Of a DNA stretch of 52,977 nt, positions 1 to 17,182 are shown piece by piece. A program made the translations under genes and the position numbers. The stretch comes from an uncultured Alphaproteobacteria bacterium (GTDB lineage: Bacteria; Pseudomonadota; Alphaproteobacteria; Caulobacterales; Hyphomonadaceae), in contig CAIKWZ010000032.1 of the NCBI GenBank assembly GCA_903831255.1, positions 1 to 52,977 of the forward strand. Reading direction: 5' to 3'. The notes beneath the pieces are model-generated. The model saw nothing but the letters and a program-made list of their open reading frames with translations, ran no database searches and had not been told where the DNA came from. Position 1 is the stretch's first letter; each line of letters begins with the position of its first letter.

Positions 1-137
1 CGATGGCTGACCGTCCACGCTCCCAACCGAAACCACGGTTCGTGGTCGGGATCCGCCGCGAGATCGTCTGTAAGATCAATCTGTGGAATCGTCGACAGAT
101 CGTCGGGTAAATCCGCAATGTCAAAGAGCGCGGTCAT
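1..137 (-). CDS. unknown protein, N-terminal 45 codons only (cut by window edge)
   Basis: An ATG on the minus strand overlaps the stop of the AbiEii-type gene in an ATGA arrangement, and the frame stays open to the window edge. The visible residues start MTALFDIADLPDDL and are acidic, with no recognisable domain and no signal peptide. The 4-nt overlap suggests translational coupling as third gene of the abiE operon. AbiE modules are normally bicistronic, so this partner is unusual. The product cannot be named from this fragment. Confidence 0.6.
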   Translation of the reverse strand, partial: MTALFDIADLPDDLSTIPQIDLTDDLAADPDHEPWFRLGAWTVSH

Positions 138-1066
138 CGGGCGGCATTCCCTGCAGCGGTCAACACATGTGTTAGTTCAGTGACATTCGCGGCCCGGCGC
201 TGCGCATCAAGCCCCAGGATATTCTGTAGCCGCCACTTCACGGCGGGAAGATCGGCAGCGCCGGGGATATCGACAAGGGTCCAGTCGGGCTGCCCTGTTT
301 CAACGGAAAGTAGCAGATTGCGATGACTGGCAGGCATCTGCGCGGCGAGCGTTTCGACCAGTTTGGTACGGACCGCTTCAAGATCGGCGACAGTCACCGT
401 CTCGTCGGTCATGCCGGCGAAGTTGGTGTCGAACTCTGGCTGTAGGGGCTTGGGGCGACAGCCGAGAAGTTCGGCGACAGGCCGCTTGTGGCTGATGAGA
501 TAGACCAGGAAGGCGCACCGCAGGTCCTCATCAACACCCTCGTTGGCCAACAGGGCGCGCGCGTCGAAGAGGTCGCGCGGATGCTGGCGATCGAGCGCCG
601 CGACCAGCTTGCCGGCATAGAGATCGGCGAATGACAGGACCTGGATTTCAGCAAAGCCGAACGCAGTCTGGACGCTATCGGTGACGGCCATCAGCACAGC
701 AGGAAACACGGACCCTCGCAGGACGGGCGTCACTTCGATCTTGATCTGCGCGCCCGGGATGGCCACCACCAGCTTGACGATCTTGTTTTCGGGCTGGGTG
801 CGTGACGTCGTCACCGTTGCGCCCGGAATGCCGCCTTCGATGGCTGTCTTGATCCGCAGGAGCGCGGCTTCAATGTCGGCGAGCGACGCGGCGCGGTCTG
901 CAACCGGGAGATACGCCAGATCGATATCGACGGAGAGACGTGGCAGGTCGCGGACGAAGAGATTGATCGCCGTACCGCCCTTCAGCGCAAAACAGTCTTC
1001 GGCCGCCACGAATGGCAGCACGCGGACCAGCAGCTGGACCTGGGCTTTGTAGACTTCAGTAGTCAT
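134..1066 (-). CDS. abiEii: AbiEii/AbiGii-type nucleotidyltransferase toxin
   Basis: This is the toxin half of an AbiE-type toxin-antitoxin and abortive-infection module; family members are nucleotidyltransferases that act in the cytoplasm. The start chosen (MTTEVYKAQ) gives 310 aa and an 11-nt overlap with the upstream antitoxin gene; a longer open frame reaching 1195 runs inside that gene and is unlikely. The nucleotidyltransferase motif is visible: GGT at residues 30-32, then D47 and D49 in SVDIDL. The later family motif is also present as a conserved Lys followed by DRQHPRDLFDA. Length is normal for the family. It is co-transcribed with the antitoxin and probably with the gene starting at 137. 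Confidence 0.9.
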   Translation of the reverse strand: MTTEVYKAQVQLLVRVLPFVAAEDCFALKGGTAINLFVRDLPRLSVDIDLAYLPVADRAASLADIEAALLRIKTAIEGGIPGATVTTSRTQPENKIVKLVVAIPGAQIKIEVTPVLRGSVFPAVLMAVTDSVQTAFGFAEIQVLSFADLYAGKLVAALDRQHPRDLFDARALLANEGVDEDLRCAFLVYLISHKRPVAELLGCRPKPLQPEFDTNFAGMTDETVTVADLEAVRTKLVETLAAQMPASHRNLLLSVETGQPDWTLVDIPGAADLPAVKWRLQNILGLDAQRRAANVTELTHVLTAAGNAAR

Positions 1067-1928
1067 CCTGCTTTTGTAGCAGGAACTCCGGAACCGTGAT
1101 CTGGAATTTCTTGTCGTAGCGACCGTTCGCGACAAGGGCGCGTTTTCCGGCGCCGAGGTCGATCCGGTTCCGGTCCAGCTTGGCCAGCCAGGCATGGCCG
1201 TGCCGCTCAGCCAAAAACAGGAACAGGCGCTTCACTTTGACGGACCGGCAGGCTTCGAGCAGGTGCTGCTGCAGGCGGGGCCGCAGGTTGGCGAGGCCGT
1301 CCATGATCTTGTCAGCCTGTTCGAAGCTTTCAGCGCCCGGAAGCTCATCGAGAAGTTCGAGGATGGCGCGCTCGGGTATGGCGACGGGGAATGTCCAGCG
1401 CTCGCGGTCGACCGACATGCGCGCGCGACCAGAGAGCAGCAATGGGTCTGTTGTCGCGTTGCCAAACTTCGGCGCGGGCAGCGTCGCCGCCAGCATCGAC
1501 GCATCAAACAGAGGCGCCGTGCGATGGAGACGCCAGGCGACATCGGTCGGCACCCGGGCGAGCCATGCCGGAAGCTTGTCAGCATAGAGGTCCACGGTCT
1601 TGAGCGGGCTCATCGACAGGTAGTGCGCGTGCCCTGTCAGGCTGAGCGCCATGCGACCGCCAACGTGAACGTCGTAGCCTAGCAGACTGGAGAGCGACGC
1701 TAGCAGAAGGCGCCAGTCAACGGTCTCCGGGCCAGTGACCTGCCCGAGCCCGGCGAGCGGGCGGCGGTAGACGCCACGCGTGAGCATGTCGAGCCAGCTA
1801 TTGGCGACATATTTCTGGCGAAGAGGATGAGTGTATCCGTTGGCGTCCAGCCAGGCGGCGTCGACAACCAGTCCTTCCGGAAGGATGCGCTGCAGGTGGT
1901 TTAACTTGGATGCCTTTTGCGATGCCAT
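1056..1928 (-). CDS. abiEi: AbiEi-type antitoxin, DNA-binding
   Basis: Cognate antitoxin of the AbiEii-type toxin, 290 aa. The N-terminal ~90 residues match the winged-helix AbiEi antitoxin domain seen in type IV modules (the stretch VYRRPLAG follows the recognition region). The rest is the C-terminal AbiEi domain. In studied AbiE systems the antitoxin represses its own promoter by binding inverted repeats, and it counters the toxin without a tight complex. The gene starts with ATG behind AAAGAGAT and a sigma70-like promoter. Its end overlaps the toxin start by 11 nt. Family assignment rests on protein pattern and gene order, because the antitoxins are divergent. Confidence 0.85.
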   Translation of the reverse strand: MASQKASKLNHLQRILPEGLVVDAAWLDANGYTHPLRQKYVANSWLDMLTRGVYRRPLAGLGQVTGPETVDWRLLLASLSSLLGYDVHVGGRMALSLTGHAHYLSMSPLKTVDLYADKLPAWLARVPTDVAWRLHRTAPLFDASMLAATLPAPKFGNATTDPLLLSGRARMSVDRERWTFPVAIPERAILELLDELPGAESFEQADKIMDGLANLRPRLQQHLLEACRSVKVKRLFLFLAERHGHAWLAKLDRNRIDLGAGKRALVANGRYDKKFQITVPEFLLQKQDDY

Positions 1929-2076: not shown

Positions 2077-2091
2077 GTTCGCTATTTGTTC
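2077..2091 (+). promoter_or_regulatory. LexA (SOS) box of alphaproteobacterial type
   Basis: GTTC-GCTATTT-GTTC exactly fits GTTC-N7-GTTC, the known LexA target in Alphaproteobacteria. It ends 5 nt before the ATG of the umuD'-like gene, which leaves no room for an ordinary Shine-Dalgarno. Either the mRNA is nearly leaderless or the operator covers the transcription start. Confidence 0.8.
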
Positions 2092-2096
2092 TCCTC

Positions 2097-2465
2097 ATGG
2101 GACAGTACAAGGGCGACGAGACGACGGGGTTTCAGTCCCCGGCGCAGGACTACATCGAGGGCGTGGTGTATCTTGCCGCCATTCTCGATCTGCGCCGGCC
2201 AGGGCGCTATCCCGTGCGCGTGAAGGGTCAGGCGCTGGCGGCGCGCGGGATTCATGACGGCGATATTCTGGTCGCTGACGCCGCCGCCGAACCGCGCGCA
2301 GGCGTGGTCTGTGTCGCCATGGTCGGGGGCGACGTCATCCTCGCAACGCTTAGCAAGCGCGCTGATGTCTGGGTCCTGAAGCCCTCCTCGGGCGCGCTGA
2401 TCACGATCGCCGATGATGTCGAGGTCTGGGCGATCGTGCAGGCGCTTGTGCGGACGAACGTCTGA
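2097..2465 (+). CDS. umuD: UmuD'-like subunit lacking the protease dyad
   Basis: Accessory subunit of a UmuC-type translesion polymerase, 122 aa. [11 protein letters not shown] near the N-terminus matches the UmuD segment just after its self-cleavage site, and GIHDGDILV matches the conserved core strand. The ~24-residue cleavable arm is absent, so the protein begins in the form UmuD has after RecA-stimulated cleavage. The catalytic Ser position (GDSM in UmuD) reads GQAL here, and the catalytic Lys region (VKKL) reads LATL, so it should not self-cleave. Phage P1 HumD is a known naturally short UmuD' homologue. The stop overlaps the umuC start as TGATG. A LexA box lies directly upstream. Confidence 0.85.
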
Positions 2466-3718
2466 TGTTCGCCCTCATCGACGCCAACAGCTTCTATTGC
2501 TCGTGCGAGCGCGCCTTCGATCCGAAGCTGCGGCCCCTGCCGGTCGCTGTCCTCTCCAACAATGACGGCTGCGCCATTGCCCTGACGCGCGAGGCAAAGG
2601 ACCTCGGCCTCAAGATGGGAGATCCGTATCATCTCGTCGCCAAGCGGCCAGAGCTGAAACCGATCGTCTGGCGCTCGTCGAACTATGCCCTCTACGGCGA
2701 TATGAGCCGTCGCATCTACGAGACGCTGCTCGATCTTGTCCCGGTGGTGGAGCCCTACTCCATCGACGAGATGTTCCTCGACCTCGCCGGGATGCCGGGC
2801 GAACTCGCCCAGTTGGCCGCCGACATCCGCAGCCACGTCCGCAAGATCGCCAAGATCCCGTGCTGTGTCGGCATCGGCCCGACCAAGACCATCGCCAAGC
2901 TCGCCAACAAGGTCGCCAAAAAGGACCGAAACGGACCGGGCGTTTGCGACTACAGCGAAGAATCCGTGCGCGCCGCAGCCTATCCGAGCCTGCCGCTTGG
3001 CGATGTCTGGGGTATTGGGCCAGCGTCGGTCGCGAAACTCGCAGCGCTCGGTGTCGAGACCGTCGGGGCATTTGTGGCGATGCCGGCAGAGTACGTGCGG
3101 AAGGTTTTGACCGTCACGGGCGCCAAGACCCATGCCGAGCTGCAGGGTGTCATCTGCTTCCCGTTCAACACGGCGCCCGCGACCAGGAAGAGTCTGGCCG
3201 TCACGCGCAGTTTCGGGCGGGCGGTGACAACCTGGCCCGAGATGCGGGACGCTATCGCCAGCTACACCGCGCGCGCCGCCGAGAAGATGCGCCGCCATGG
3301 GCTGGTCGCTTCCGCCATGCAGGTATTCATGCTCACCAACCGCTTCAACAACGACCCGCGCTACGCCAACCAGGTGACGTTTGCTGTCGAGCCGACGGCC
3401 GACAGTTTTGCGCTGATCGCCTCGGCCGTGCACGCCGCTGAGCGGCTGTGGCGGCCTGGCTATCGTTTCGCCAAGGCTGGCGTTGTGTTCGTCGACCTGC
3501 ATCGGCCGGACGATCTGCCGATCCAGATGCTGCCCTCACGCGACCCCGAACGGTCTGCCCGCCTGATGGCGGCGCTTGATGGCGTCAACGGCCGGTTCGG
3601 CCGGAACACTCTCCGCCCCGGCGGCACCGGTCCCAAACCGCAATGGGGCATGCGCCGCGCCCGGCTATCCCCCGCCTATACAACGCGGCTAGACGACGTT
3701 CTGGAAGCGCAAGCCTAG
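2465..3718 (+). CDS. umuC: Y-family DNA polymerase V catalytic subunit UmuC
   Basis: Error-prone translesion polymerase, 417 aa against 422 in E. coli. The N-terminal [19 protein letters not shown] carries the first metal-binding Asp, and [10 protein letters not shown] carries the second Y-family catalytic motif (SIDE). Helix-hairpin-helix residues follow ([14 protein letters not shown], then [12 protein letters not shown]), and the little-finger region fills the last third. It is translationally coupled to the UmuD'-like gene (TGATG) and shares its LexA box. It should therefore be SOS-induced and pair with a permanently active UmuD' partner. It converges on the helicase gene, with 26 nt between the two stops. 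Confidence 0.95.
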
Positions 3719-3744: not shown

Positions 3745-6489
3745 TCAACGAGCGGCGCGCAAGCGAGAGAGAAGCTTTCCGCCACAACGCGGAAAGTTCG
3801 AGCATCTCATCGACTTGCTCTGATCATCGAAAAGTTCACGTAGAACTCCGGTGGCGCAGCGAGTGCAGGGTTCGGCCTTGACCGGGCGAGGCCGCGGCGC
3901 TCCGACGCGGTAAACGGCGCCTGCGGCCCCGAGAAGCTCCTTGATGAAAGGCGACGCGCGCCCGCGGCGTGTCAGGATGTGGCAGCGGTGCTTGGCGCGC
4001 GTCAGCCCGACGTAGAACAAGCGGCGTTCTTCTGCGAACTCCATCGCTTCCGGCTTGGGCAGCACCATGTTGAGCAAAGGGTCGTCTTCGATGGTGCTTG
4101 GCAATCCGAATGCGCCCTGATTGACGCCCAGAATGAAGACGTAGTCGGCCTCCAGACCTTTCGAACGATGCAGCGTCAAAAAGCGGATGTCTGCCGACTG
4201 TGCGAATTGGCGACGCCAGCGTTCGAGTTCTGTCGGCCGCAAATGTCGAAAGCGTCCGAGGATCAGAATCGAGATTTTCGCGGATCGCTGAGCAGCGTTC
4301 TTGGCCAGAGCCTCGATCTCGGCTTCAAGTATCGCCGCCAACTCATCGTCCTTGCCATACTCCAGCAGGTGTACCGTCGAATGGGTCCGCGGGTTCGCAG
4401 CCGTGATCTTCTTGCCGATCTGGTCCGGATTGCGCTGGATGAAGGCGGAGGCCGTATCAACAATTCCCTGATTGGAGCGGAACGTCTGCGTTAGAAAGGT
4501 TGTTTCGGTCGGCCCGAATTCGTCTGCGAAAGCGCGCATGATACTTTGGTCTGCGCCTGAGAACCGATAAATGGACTGCCAATCGTCGCCGACAGCGAAC
4601 AACTTACATGCAGGGTTCTGCTGAAGCATAGCGGCGACGAGCTTAGCCCGGCATCGCGAGATATCCTGAAACTCATCGACGAGAATAAGCTGATAGGGAT
4701 GGACGTGCCGACCGCTCTCAACATAGCGAACGGCAGCCCAGATCATGTCCTCGAAATCGATACAGCCGAGCGATTTTAGCCTTGCTTCATAGGCTTCGAA
4801 CAACGGTGTTGCGACACCCAGGAACAGGCGCGCGCGGAAAGCGTCGTCCTGAGTTCGAGCTAATTCCGCAAGTCCAGCCGGCGTCAGCCCATTGGATTTC
4901 GCAAGGGTAATGAATGTTTTCACCAGACCGGTGAAGGTGGGAACACGTAGCTCGGTGAGTATCGCTTGCACATCGGCGCCGGAGCGTGGGCGAAACGCTT
5001 GACCGCGGTGCTTCAGCTCACGCTCAAGATGATCAAACAGAACTTGATCGCGATACTGACTGCTGGTCGTCTCGATCAAAGCGGTCGCCCTGTCGGCGTG
5101 CAGCGCGCGCTTCCACTCGACTCCCGCAGCGTAGTCGCCGGCCATGAAAGACGGCGGCTTGCCATCAGATCCCAGCGCGAAGTGCTCGTGGTAGCAGTCA
5201 ATCTCCGGATAGTAGAAGTCTGGATGGTACTGGCGGTGCTGTTGGTCGGCGGTGTCGTAGGCGTAGGCCTTCTCATATTCGTATGGGACGCCATTAAGGA
5301 ACAGCCAGTTGGCGATGGCGAGCTCCTCCATTGACCTCACAAGCTCTCCGTTAAGGGTGCGGATGCCTTTGTGCCCGTCGCGGTCCTCCCCAACCTGAGC
5401 GATGTAGTCATTGTAGTCGCGCTGCGATGCGAAGCGCGGAAGCTCGCGGTTCGGCTGCGCGGCAAGCGCCCGGAAAAGGTTCCAGCGAACCAAGAAGCCA
5501 AGGTCGGATGCTGATAGTTCGGCAACGAGTTCGTTGATGATCGCGCCCTCGTTGTCTGGCGTTTCGTTTGCCCACGGCGCGAGGTCCGGTTTTCTGCCCT
5601 CAACTGCAGAAATGATGTCGAGCCCCACCTTGTGGAACGTCTGGGCAGTAAGCTCATCGAGGTGATTCACTCGGCCTGCCAGTCGCCGCGTCAGACGATC
5701 ACGCAGCTCGTCGGCTGCCGATTTGTTGTACGCGATGGCTAGAACGCCGCGCGGCTGGCAGTGGCCCGCGCTAAGCGCATAGCCAACCTTTGCGACGAGA
5801 GTGGAAGTCTTGCCTGAACCGGCAGCTGCAATCACCAAACAGCGATCTTCCATAACCAGGCTGGCGCGCCGTTGCTGTTCCGTCAGCGGGGTTGACTCGA
5901 TTGTGTCGAAGAACCCTTTCCAAGCGACAAGCTCCGAAGCCAAGTGTCGCGCATTCCGGTCGGCAAGTTCCTGTGAAGCGCCGGTGGCTAGGGCCTTCAG
6001 GCGGGAAACGGGGTCTGCCTGCGACGGGGCTGTCGCATACAGCAACGGATGAACCAGCAGCTGAAGGAGGGAAGTAGAGGACAGATCTCCAGTGTCCTTT
6101 TCCGCCAGCCAGAGGGCGATGTCTCTGCGAGCAAGGTAGCGGGGCGTCTTCAGAAACCTGTCAATTTCGGCATCGTCGATGCCTTGCTTGGCAGCGTGTT
6201 TTGAGGCTTCAGCTGCAACCGCTGCCGAAACCGCTGCGGTCAGCTTGTCCCGAAACTTTGCAGCAGGAAAACGAGCTGCGCCTCGAAATTGGAGTTCGCC
6301 CGCCGGAGTGACGATTGAGACTGTGCACCAGCCGTCAACGAGCGAGACTCGAACAATCCTGACATTCGCGAAGTCGATCTTTGTCTGCTGTCCACCGTCA
6401 CGGATCTGGAGGTTGTTGTCGGTGAGGAGGAGACGCCAGTTACCGGTGTTTCCGAACAATCGGCTCAAGAATGGCGGCGCTAGTTCCAA
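3745..6489 (-). CDS. helD: UvrD/Rep-family helicase, HelD (helicase IV) type
   Basis: Superfamily 1A helicase of 914 aa. A HelD-like N-terminal region precedes helicase motif I (GSGKT at 224-228), motif II (VDEFQD, 604-609) and a UvrD C-terminal core (TLHRSKGLEADYV). An insertion around 385-440 (HPDFYYPE then EHF) matches the PD-(D/E)XK-like insert of helicase IV. The C-terminus has a four-Cys zinc ribbon (C875, C878, C896, C902). Start TTG is preceded by GAGG at suitable distance. The role is probably in DNA recombination or repair; in this neighbourhood a defence role is also possible. The gene 86 nt upstream may be a partner. Confidence 0.88.
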   Translation of the reverse strand: MELAPPFLSRLFGNTGNWRLLLTDNNLQIRDGGQQTKIDFANVRIVRVSLVDGWCTVSIVTPAGELQFRGAARFPAAKFRDKLTAAVSAAVAAEASKHAAKQGIDDAEIDRFLKTPRYLARRDIALWLAEKDTGDLSSTSLLQLLVHPLLYATAPSQADPVSRLKALATGASQELADRNARHLASELVAWKGFFDTIESTPLTEQQRRASLVMEDRCLVIAAAGSGKTSTLVAKVGYALSAGHCQPRGVLAIAYNKSAADELRDRLTRRLAGRVNHLDELTAQTFHKVGLDIISAVEGRKPDLAPWANETPDNEGAIINELVAELSASDLGFLVRWNLFRALAAQPNRELPRFASQRDYNDYIAQVGEDRDGHKGIRTLNGELVRSMEELAIANWLFLNGVPYEYEKAYAYDTADQQHRQYHPDFYYPEIDCYHEHFALGSDGKPPSFMAGDYAAGVEWKRALHADRATALIETTSSQYRDQVLFDHLERELKHRGQAFRPRSGADVQAILTELRVPTFTGLVKTFITLAKSNGLTPAGLAELARTQDDAFRARLFLGVATPLFEAYEARLKSLGCIDFEDMIWAAVRYVESGRHVHPYQLILVDEFQDISRCRAKLVAAMLQQNPACKLFAVGDDWQSIYRFSGADQSIMRAFADEFGPTETTFLTQTFRSNQGIVDTASAFIQRNPDQIGKKITAANPRTHSTVHLLEYGKDDELAAILEAEIEALAKNAAQRSAKISILILGRFRHLRPTELERWRRQFAQSADIRFLTLHRSKGLEADYVFILGVNQGAFGLPSTIEDDPLLNMVLPKPEAMEFAEERRLFYVGLTRAKHRCHILTRRGRASPFIKELLGAAGAVYRVGAPRPRPVKAEPCTRCATGVLRELFDDQSKSMRCSNFPRCGGKLLSRLRAAR

Positions 6490-15853: not shown

Positions 15854-16516
15854 CACAGCCACAATGGGCGGGATGAGCCAGTCTCTGTCCGCAGCCGGAA
15901 TCCGGATTGCCGATGAATATCCAGGTCGTCCATCGCGCCTGCCCTGGAAGTCTCCAGAATGTGGACAAGAGACGCGGGTCTCACCAGCAAAAATGAGCTG
16001 GGCGGCGCCAGTTTGGATCGCAATCACTTCCGAGGAGAGACTGTATCTCGTCAGAACGCTTGGAGCCTACGGGGCAGATCCCTTTTGATGTCGCCATAGC
16101 GCGATGGCGCGAATGATCACATTTTGGGACCCAAGCAGCCCCCTTCTACAAAACGGACACTTACATTCTGGGGTTTGGCCCGCCCCCACCCAGATCACGC
16201 CCCGGCCGCCGCGTGGTCGGCGCGCGTGCGTGATCCCGGATCGTTCAAAGGTCTGGCGCTCGCCATAAACTGCACCGCGCTGATTGATCCGCTCCCTTGG
16301 AACTGGTCCCACTTTGGTATGTCTTCAGGGGGCACTAAGCGAGCATGGTTCGAGAGGAGTAGCTCGCCGCGAGGCAGTGATGGGTATACGGCGGGAAAAG
16401 ACCCGCGCCACGCGGTCAGTCGGTCCGCCAGAGGACTCCAGCCGATAATTGCCGATTGCAGCCGATTAGAGAATTCGCGACAGTGCAGCAGCGTTCCTCC
16501 AGCATCAGCTGAGTCA
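15854..16516. other. 663-nt stretch without an accepted gene
   Basis: No gene is accepted. A perfect inverted repeat CGCCAT-N6-ATGGCG lies at 16092-16109 with no T-run. A minus-strand frame at 16195-16551 (118 codons) is somewhat protein-like near its end (PKWDQFQGSGSISAVQF), but it overlaps the start of the MerB-like gene and has no recognisable family; it may be a remnant. Confidence 0.4.
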
Positions 16517-17182
16517 ATGATCTCCGACACCGACATGGATTTGCGCGGCACGCTGACAAGGATGATCGCAAACCTTGGGTACGCGCCGTCTATCGAGGAT
16601 CTTTCAGACCGCGTGGGGCGGACTGCCGGGGAAGTAGAAGCCTCTCTGCGCCGGCTTCATGATGGGCACGCGCTTCTGCTGCATCCTCATGGCGGCCGCC
16701 CCTGGGTCGTCCATCCCTTCGCCTTGTCGCCGGGTTCGTGCTGGGTGCAAACGGCCCAACGCGGATACTGGGCCAATTGCCTCTATTGCGCCTTCGGGAT
16801 TTCAGCGGCGCTTCGCCGCGATGCCGTTATAACGACACGCATTGGTGGTGAGGCGGAGACCGTACGCTACACGATTGAAGGCCAGCGTCCGCACGAAACG
16901 GAAGACATCTTTCACCTGTCGACACCAGTGGCCCGCTGGTGGGACAACGTGGTGCACGCCTGCGCCTCATTCCAGCCATTCCACACGGGAGCGGAGGCTG
17001 ACAACTGGTGTATCCGTCATGACATGCCCAAGGGCGCGATGATGAGCATACCGGCCCTCTGGGCCTTCGCTCAGGACTGGTACGGCGGCGCCCTCGATCA
17101 ACCCTGGCGGAAGCGTACCGCCCCTGAGGCGCGCGAACTGTTCGCGCGCCATGGCCTGATATCAGACTTTTGGGCGATCTAG
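16517..17182 (+). CDS. alkylmercury lyase (MerB)-like protein with altered catalytic residue
   Basis: A 221-aa protein matching the organomercurial lyase family in length and layout: an N-terminal winged-helix part (residues 9-55), the core HPFALSPGSCWV, the motif ANCLYCAFGISAAL and the C-terminal HACASFQPF followed by DNWCIRHD. Aligning the usual NCxxD motif puts the first catalytic Cys at C88 and C149 at the second catalytic Cys. The position of the catalytic Asp is C91. MerB cleaves C-Hg bonds with Cys96, Cys159 and Asp99. No merA, merR or merT gene is near, so true mercury resistance is uncertain. ATG 16517 was chosen because the earlier part of the open frame is not protein-like; ATG 16535 is also possible. 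Confidence 0.75.
   Translation: MISDTDMDLRGTLTRMIANLGYAPSIEDLSDRVGRTAGEVEASLRRLHDGHALLLHPHGGRPWVVHPFALSPGSCWVQTAQRGYWANCLYCAFGISAALRRDAVITTRIGGEAETVRYTIEGQRPHETEDIFHLSTPVARWWDNVVHACASFQPFHTGAEADNWCIRHDMPKGAMMSIPALWAFAQDWYGGALDQPWRKRTAPEARELFARHGLISDFWAI

Follow-up and report, generated by a model that had tools for sequence, protein, structure and literature searches.

A 52,977-nucleotide stretch of DNA (hereafter the window) was analyzed, where a two-gene operon was found near one contig end. It is composed of a umuD'-like gene and a umuC gene, with a one-base overlap between the stop codon of the former and the start codon of the latter, and it is located between an AbiE toxin-antitoxin pair and the gene of a UvrD-like helicase (Table 1). 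Besides the operon, 20 ORFs drawn from the 42 mechanical ORFs of at least 200 aa were scanned with Pfam, and the 17 that are not its neighbors either looked chromosomal or had no match. An ORF matching the MerB (alkylmercury lyase) domain was observed at 16124-17182. The operon had been described in a first-pass annotation as part of an accessory segment, and both its AbiE and UvrD-like flanks and its occurrence in the family, where matches were found in five of 105 genomes including its own, agree with that description.

Table 1. Features of the umuD'-umuC operon and its neighbors in the window
Feature	Position	Strand	Description	Evidence
AbiEii-type toxin gene	134-1195	-	Neighbor	Pfam match
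AbiEi antitoxin gene	1056-1928	-	Neighbor	Pfam match
LexA-type operator	2077-2091	+	GTTC-N7-GTTC, GTTCGCTATTTGTTC; last base five bases before the umuD' start codon	
umuD'-like gene	2097-2465	+	122 aa, about the length of cleaved UmuD	ORF, profile matches, alignment, model
10-codon N-terminus	2097-2126	+	Clade-conserved YxGxxTT where the cleavage arm is expected	Alignments
Ala46 codon	2232-2234	+	Position of catalytic Ser60	Alignment to E. coli UmuD
Ala83 codon	2343-2345	+	Position of catalytic Lys97	Alignment to E. coli UmuD
umuC	2465-3718	+	417 aa, Y-family DNA polymerase; D6, D101, E102 and clade-specific M103 (YSIDEMF)	
UvrD-like helicase gene	3745-6489	-	Neighbor	Pfam match

The homology of the short protein to UmuD is far above chance. 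It matched PHROG 811 (E 4.3e-20) and the Pfam family Peptidase_S24 (E 7.5e-11; 42.2 bits against a cut-off of 23.3), and its best sequence matches among solved structures were chains of UmuD (E 2.1e-11) and UmuD' (E 1.7e-10). A predicted model had a mean pLDDT of 79.8, with residues 1-7 and 9-20 under 50, and its best fold match was UmuD' (1umu; E 1.4e-6, TM-score 0.65/0.74, rmsd 6.7), while the rmsd to the UmuD of 8gmt was 2.7. The score for NCBIfam NF007621, the autoproteolytic UmuD subunit of pol V, was 63.3 bits and below the cut-off of 110. In place of the arm and Cys/Ala-Gly site of that family, the window protein has 10 residues and a Thr-Gly, and in place of the Ser60/Lys97 dyad it has Ala and Ala.

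Relatives of the operon form a clade of 39 intact loci, the window included, which encode 38 distinct proteins and occur on plasmids (mostly of Acetobacteraceae), viral or prophage contigs, and MAGs. These counts refer to related copies, several of them closely similar and on viral contigs, and not to independent events. The plasmid members, identified by tblastn, were from Acidiphilium, Acetobacter, Lichenicola, Roseomonas, Swingsia, Acidithiobacillus, and one Sphingomonas. Clade members were carried by 24 viral or prophage contigs; the profile scans gave 15 and then 40 loci, of which 24 belong to the clade, whereas no viral relative was found when just the window protein served as the query. 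Five MAG loci also carry members, and two of the contigs appear to recur in the same-family genome set. In a clade-profile survey of 385 genomes of the class, nothing besides the window (192.6 bits) scored above 92.8 bits, and a plain protein search of the class genomes returned one partial relative (G164), with 57% identity over residues 34-100. No description of the clade was found in the literature searched, most subscription papers lying outside that search.

Of the 39 intact clade loci, 38 also encode a UmuC of at least 200 aa. It was placed in 33 loci, and its start there ranges from 25 nt ahead of the umuD stop codon to 14 nt past it. The umuC of L004 is a 65-aa stub, L094 has a shortened one of about 200 aa, and that of L039 is cut by the contig end. 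Broken or partial relatives were also found (L005/L038, L006, L040/L041, L050, L051, L054, and L104), and nine A. pasteurianus plasmids matched only residues 1-52 of the L055 query. Carriers of the same genus accounted for four of the 15 listed, and two of these four had no UmuC match at E 1e-60. As indicated by the broken relatives, the L004 stub, and these two carriers, the cassette is often lost. Additionally, L043 and L045 have a divergent gene for an SOS-response-associated peptidase next to the operon. In L042 such a gene is about 3 kb away, and a "damage-inducible mutagenesis protein" gene is directly upstream of the operon.

The ATG start codon of the window umuD' is 10 codons ahead of a GF.SPA block, which normally follows the cleavage site. 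The nearest start was 9-13 codons before GF in 35 of the 39 intact clade loci, and 16-21 codons before it in L046, L090, L118, and L119. The reading frame of the window gene is open back to position 1962, 45 codons upstream, as it could be if the start were misread and a full-length, cleavable UmuD were made. However, no ATG, GTG, or TTG occurs in this frame between 1962 and 2097, so that no longer UmuD' can be made from a standard start, and the LexA-type box is located inside the open stretch, where its position against the start leaves no room for a cleavage arm. The translated upstream stretches of the relatives also looked mutually unrelated by eye, and the dyad would be missing regardless. 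A misread start is hence barely conceivable, and a longer N-terminus was rejected as a candidate. The sole in-frame standard start, 10 codons before GF, bears out the earlier claim of a UmuD homologue born in the cleaved form. A Shine-Dalgarno-like stretch between the box and the start was seen by eye in many clade loci, but not in the window.

The first-pass annotation had also claimed that Ala stands in place of the catalytic Ser and that the catalytic Lys is missing, and the alignment confirmed both, as Ser60 and Lys97 of E. coli UmuD correspond to Ala46 and Ala83 of the window protein. Ser60 is named as the active-site residue of UmuD in one source (PMC3901139), and according to another, UmuD carrying K97A is unable to undergo conversion to UmuD' (PMC4552617). 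The loss is shared by the clade: Lys97 was absent from 39 of 39 intact loci, and Ser60 was replaced, by Ala among other residues, in 38, the exception being L049, which keeps Ser. The residues at positions 60 and 97 were T/A in 11 loci, A/A in 10, A/C in seven, and G/A in seven, while A/G, S/A, G/C, and P/A occurred once each. The residue before the Gly of GF was Thr throughout, or Ser in L052. By comparison, 60 of 93 other aligned rows had S/K at these positions, a set that includes duplicates, clade fragments, HumD and gp26, LexA-like proteins, and viral groups II and III (described below). A dyad elsewhere in the protein was also looked for in the alignments. None was found at the catalytic columns, and the 27-row clade alignment contains no conserved Lys column at all, which makes a conserved Ser/Lys dyad at another site unlikely. 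Among UmuD proteins that have an arm (armed UmuD), Cys was observed at position 60 in L031, L034, L073, and L108, the last from a Caulobacter plasmid. Those of L056 and L058, from Sphingomonas and Sphingobium plasmids, have the arm, an Ala-Gly site, and Ser60, but Arg at position 97.

The GTTC-N7-GTTC box before umuD' is of the type that we take to be the alphaproteobacterial LexA motif. The same type of box was found upstream of the gene read as lexA in the source genome, and another precedes a weak IMS match, taken for imuB, by about 800 bases; none was found within the stretch examined for recA. When 75-nt stretches of the window were taken at random, 0.5% had such a box on either strand. 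The genome contained 140 exact boxes against 42 for a reversed control pattern, and the box alone therefore proves little; the argument for LexA control comes from where it is placed relative to the start codon and from its repeated presence among relatives. In the clade, 27 of the 39 loci have an exact box in the same orientation no more than 90 nt from the GF codon, and the gap is 31-63 nt. In armed UmuD loci, the gap between box and body was 78-125 nt and had no overlap with that of the clade, in a comparison of 23 loci that includes duplicates and counts only those with a same-orientation box within 300 nt. Among the other 12 clade loci, upstream DNA was lacking in L102 and L115, the box had one mismatch in L111, L114, and L116, and L113 had a box in the opposite orientation at -62. 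The remaining six (L042, L046, L090, L112, L118, and L119) had no box within 90 nt, and each had one further upstream. A LexA-type operator is thus present at the promoter of the window operon, as at the putative lexA, and LexA would be expected to bind it and the operon to be induced by DNA damage. The box had earlier been held to be the only control of the operon. Its presence stands, whereas "only" was too strong, as RecA may also be needed to activate the polymerase and other turnover may play a part.

The umuD' gene is under purifying selection. Its dN/dS in the window was 0.068 against L002, 0.075 against L003, and 0.089 against L039, and a pseudogene reading was rejected on these values. 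The ratio was 0.043-0.170 in 16 of 20 chosen pairs; two pairs had saturated dS, and the constraint was weaker in L046-L090 (0.23) and L118-L119 (0.54). The existence of several broken relatives might suggest a decaying umuD' remnant beside a UmuC that acts alone. Yet the pN/pS of umuD' was equal to or below that of umuC in 16 of 19 compared pairs, the three window pairs included, and the UmuD' body was intact in 39 loci, which makes such decay very improbable. In the source genome (99.99% complete), just two S24 proteins were found, the window UmuD' and the one read as LexA, and no full-length UmuD was seen that could act in trans.

The claim that UmuC looks intact was upheld, as the window protein matched the Pfam domains IMS, IMS_C, and DUF4113 and has the catalytic residues D6, D101, and E102 of the Y-family, which were kept in 35 of 35 aligned clade UmuC. 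Its score for NF002955 was 356 bits, under the cut-off of 431. A degenerate stretch, QMLP, aligned to the clamp-binding-like QLNLF of E. coli; the motif was of an LLP type in L002 and most of L111-L117, and most other clade members kept LF. In all 35 clade sequences the catalytic Asp-Glu is followed by M103 (YSIDEMF), where 24 other UmuC have Ala, Ser, Cys, or Thr.

Both proteins also include conserved residues that may point to a gate that was moved and not lost, where the YxGxxTT peptide of UmuD' together with M103, K130, and H56-L57 of UmuC would form another control of activation or turnover. Every one of the 35 aligned clade UmuC has both M103 and K130, and neither residue occurs in the 24 others (groups II and III not counted). 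In UmuD', Y4, G6, T9, and G11 were invariant and T10 nearly so among 27 aligned clade members, though no protease needs them. However, this invariance is partly inflated by the search: TTGF and RYPVR patterns were used to find the viral loci, and the script for the clade required T[TS]G[FV], while the plasmid loci came from tblastn; the broken relative L041 carries TNGF. Moreover, scans of Pfam, NCBIfam, and PHROGs gave no match that would account for the ten N-terminal residues of the window protein, and their conservation could equally serve dimerization, UmuC binding, or RecA binding. A relocated gate is a possibility that we regard as rather doubtful.

Phylogenies of UmuC and UmuD provided further insights into the origin of the short proteins. 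In the unrooted UmuC tree (59 rows), 25 clade rows formed one group (100/100), joined (99/90) to the plasmid UmuC of L105-L110, whose UmuD have arms. Similarly, 27 clade rows formed one group (100/99) in the unrooted UmuD tree (58 rows), on a long stem of 1.22 changes per column, where a long-branch warning applies and the nearest neighbor is unsure. HumD and gp26 were placed among armed UmuD, apart from the clade, although the branch to them is also long. The simplest reading is that the arm and the dyad were lost once, in the ancestor of the clade, separately from HumD.

Two further, distant groups of short UmuD were found in viral sequences with a pattern that holds TTGF, so the motif they share with the clade proves nothing. 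Group II (L120-L122 and L126) is composed of distant short UmuD with Asp or Glu at position 60 and Arg at 97; UmuC was in four of four loci, and no plasmid match was found at E 1e-12. A promoter-like TTGACA...palindrome...TATAAT stretch was observed upstream in L120 and the identical L121 and L122. Group III (L123-L125 and L127-L135) includes low-GC, UmuD-like proteins of about 105 residues, with Ser at position 60 in five of 12 and otherwise Lys, Asn, Asp, or Thr, and Arg at position 97 in 11 of 12. Eight of the 12 loci also include a UmuC. L139-L160 are relatives or repeats of this group. In AU tests on the UmuC tree, a grouping of the clade with III (p 0.013) and of all three together (p 0.0045) was rejected, and short, dyad-impaired UmuD therefore likely had at least two origins; the clade with II (p 0.13) and II with III (p 0.25) were not rejected.

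Error-prone synthesis after DNA damage is, in the textbook view, held back by the cleavage of UmuD, which acts as a gate. We consider it quite probable that the window holds a LexA-controlled pol V operon in which the accessory subunit is made directly as UmuD' and the RecA-cleavage gate has been lost. The short protein would fold as the UmuD' body, presumably dimerize, and pair with the UmuC of its own operon. As the arm, the cleavage-site residue, and the Ser/Lys dyad are gone, RecA-stimulated self-cleavage would be neither possible nor needed, and inactivation of LexA would yield a ready UmuD'2C complex with no post-translational delay. This agrees with the first-pass annotation, in which the gate would be gone. 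Polymerase activity of the pair, UmuC binding, and lesion bypass of faster onset without a cleavage step are likewise expected. In E. coli, UmuC leaves the membrane only after UmuD cleavage, which K97A blocks (PMC4552617). The UmuD arm bears the recognition sequence for ClpX, and a Lon signal is removed by cleavage; UmuD without 18 of its residues undergoes no appreciable cleavage, although its active site can still act on another arm (PMC5342242). The ClpX and Lon signals of the E. coli arm would be missing from the window protein as well.

Alternatively, the short protein could bind RecA filaments and dampen cleavage of LexA or a prophage repressor, or recombination, for the benefit of a mobile element, with the polymerase being secondary. 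The occurrence of the clade on plasmids and viral contigs would fit such a role, as would the inhibition of RecA-mediated recombination by elevated UmuDC products in E. coli, reported in PMC5342242. A pure RecA decoy, however, would not need umuC, which was retained with its catalytic residues and under purifying selection, and we regard this role as improbable. Under the favored reading of a lost gate, a natural and selectively maintained clade allows one to ask directly what cleavage serves: the timing of mutation, the release of UmuC from the membrane, or the turnover of UmuD'. A broader proposal, made here only tentatively, is that a mobile pol V lineage swapped proteolytic activation for control through YxGxxTT and the UmuC residues, and that short, dyad-impaired pairs arose more than once, in the clade and at least one viral group. 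If true, UmuD cleavage would be an optional feature of SOS mutagenesis.

The window operon is similar to the UmuD/UmuD'-UmuC system (pol V) of E. coli in gene order, UmuD' fold, LexA-type control, and the catalytic residues of UmuC. It differs in the absence of the arm, the Cys/Ala-Gly site, Ser60, and Lys97, and in the presence of the conserved YxGxxTT N-terminus and of M103 in UmuC. The plasmid loci L105-L110 (rhizobial, Bosea, and Caulobacteraceae) include the closest UmuC relatives outside of the clade in the UmuC tree. As in the window, a LexA-type box was found upstream of the body in L105, L106, L108, L109, and L110. Unlike the clade, their UmuD have an arm of about 20 residues or more that ends in Cys-Ala-Gly or Cys-Cys-Gly; the Ser/Lys dyad is present in L105, L107, L109, and L110, position 60 is Cys in L108, and the gene is interrupted in L106.

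Activation by cleavage is, according to PMC7092418, seemingly common to Y-family polymerases encoded as the second gene of an operon, with P1 HumD as the exception. HumD had been offered as a precedent for the window protein, and the likeness holds for length: both HumD and gp26 of phage N15 are encoded at about the length of UmuD', and HumD is right behind an annotated LexA site, as the window gene adjoins a LexA-type box. In other respects the precedent did not hold. HumD and gp26 start at MGFPSPA, unlike the window N-terminus, and belong to a separate UmuD lineage. By alignment, HumD has both Ser and Lys (the Ser being tentative, next to a gap), gp26 has Thr and Lys, and no umuC was found within the stretches of about 1.15 kb examined around them. 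Orthology to HumD was rejected, as the window protein scored 32.2 bits for NF051876 (HumD) against a cut-off of 120 and has a separate place in the UmuD tree. The clade would be the second exception after P1 HumD, and one with its own umuC.
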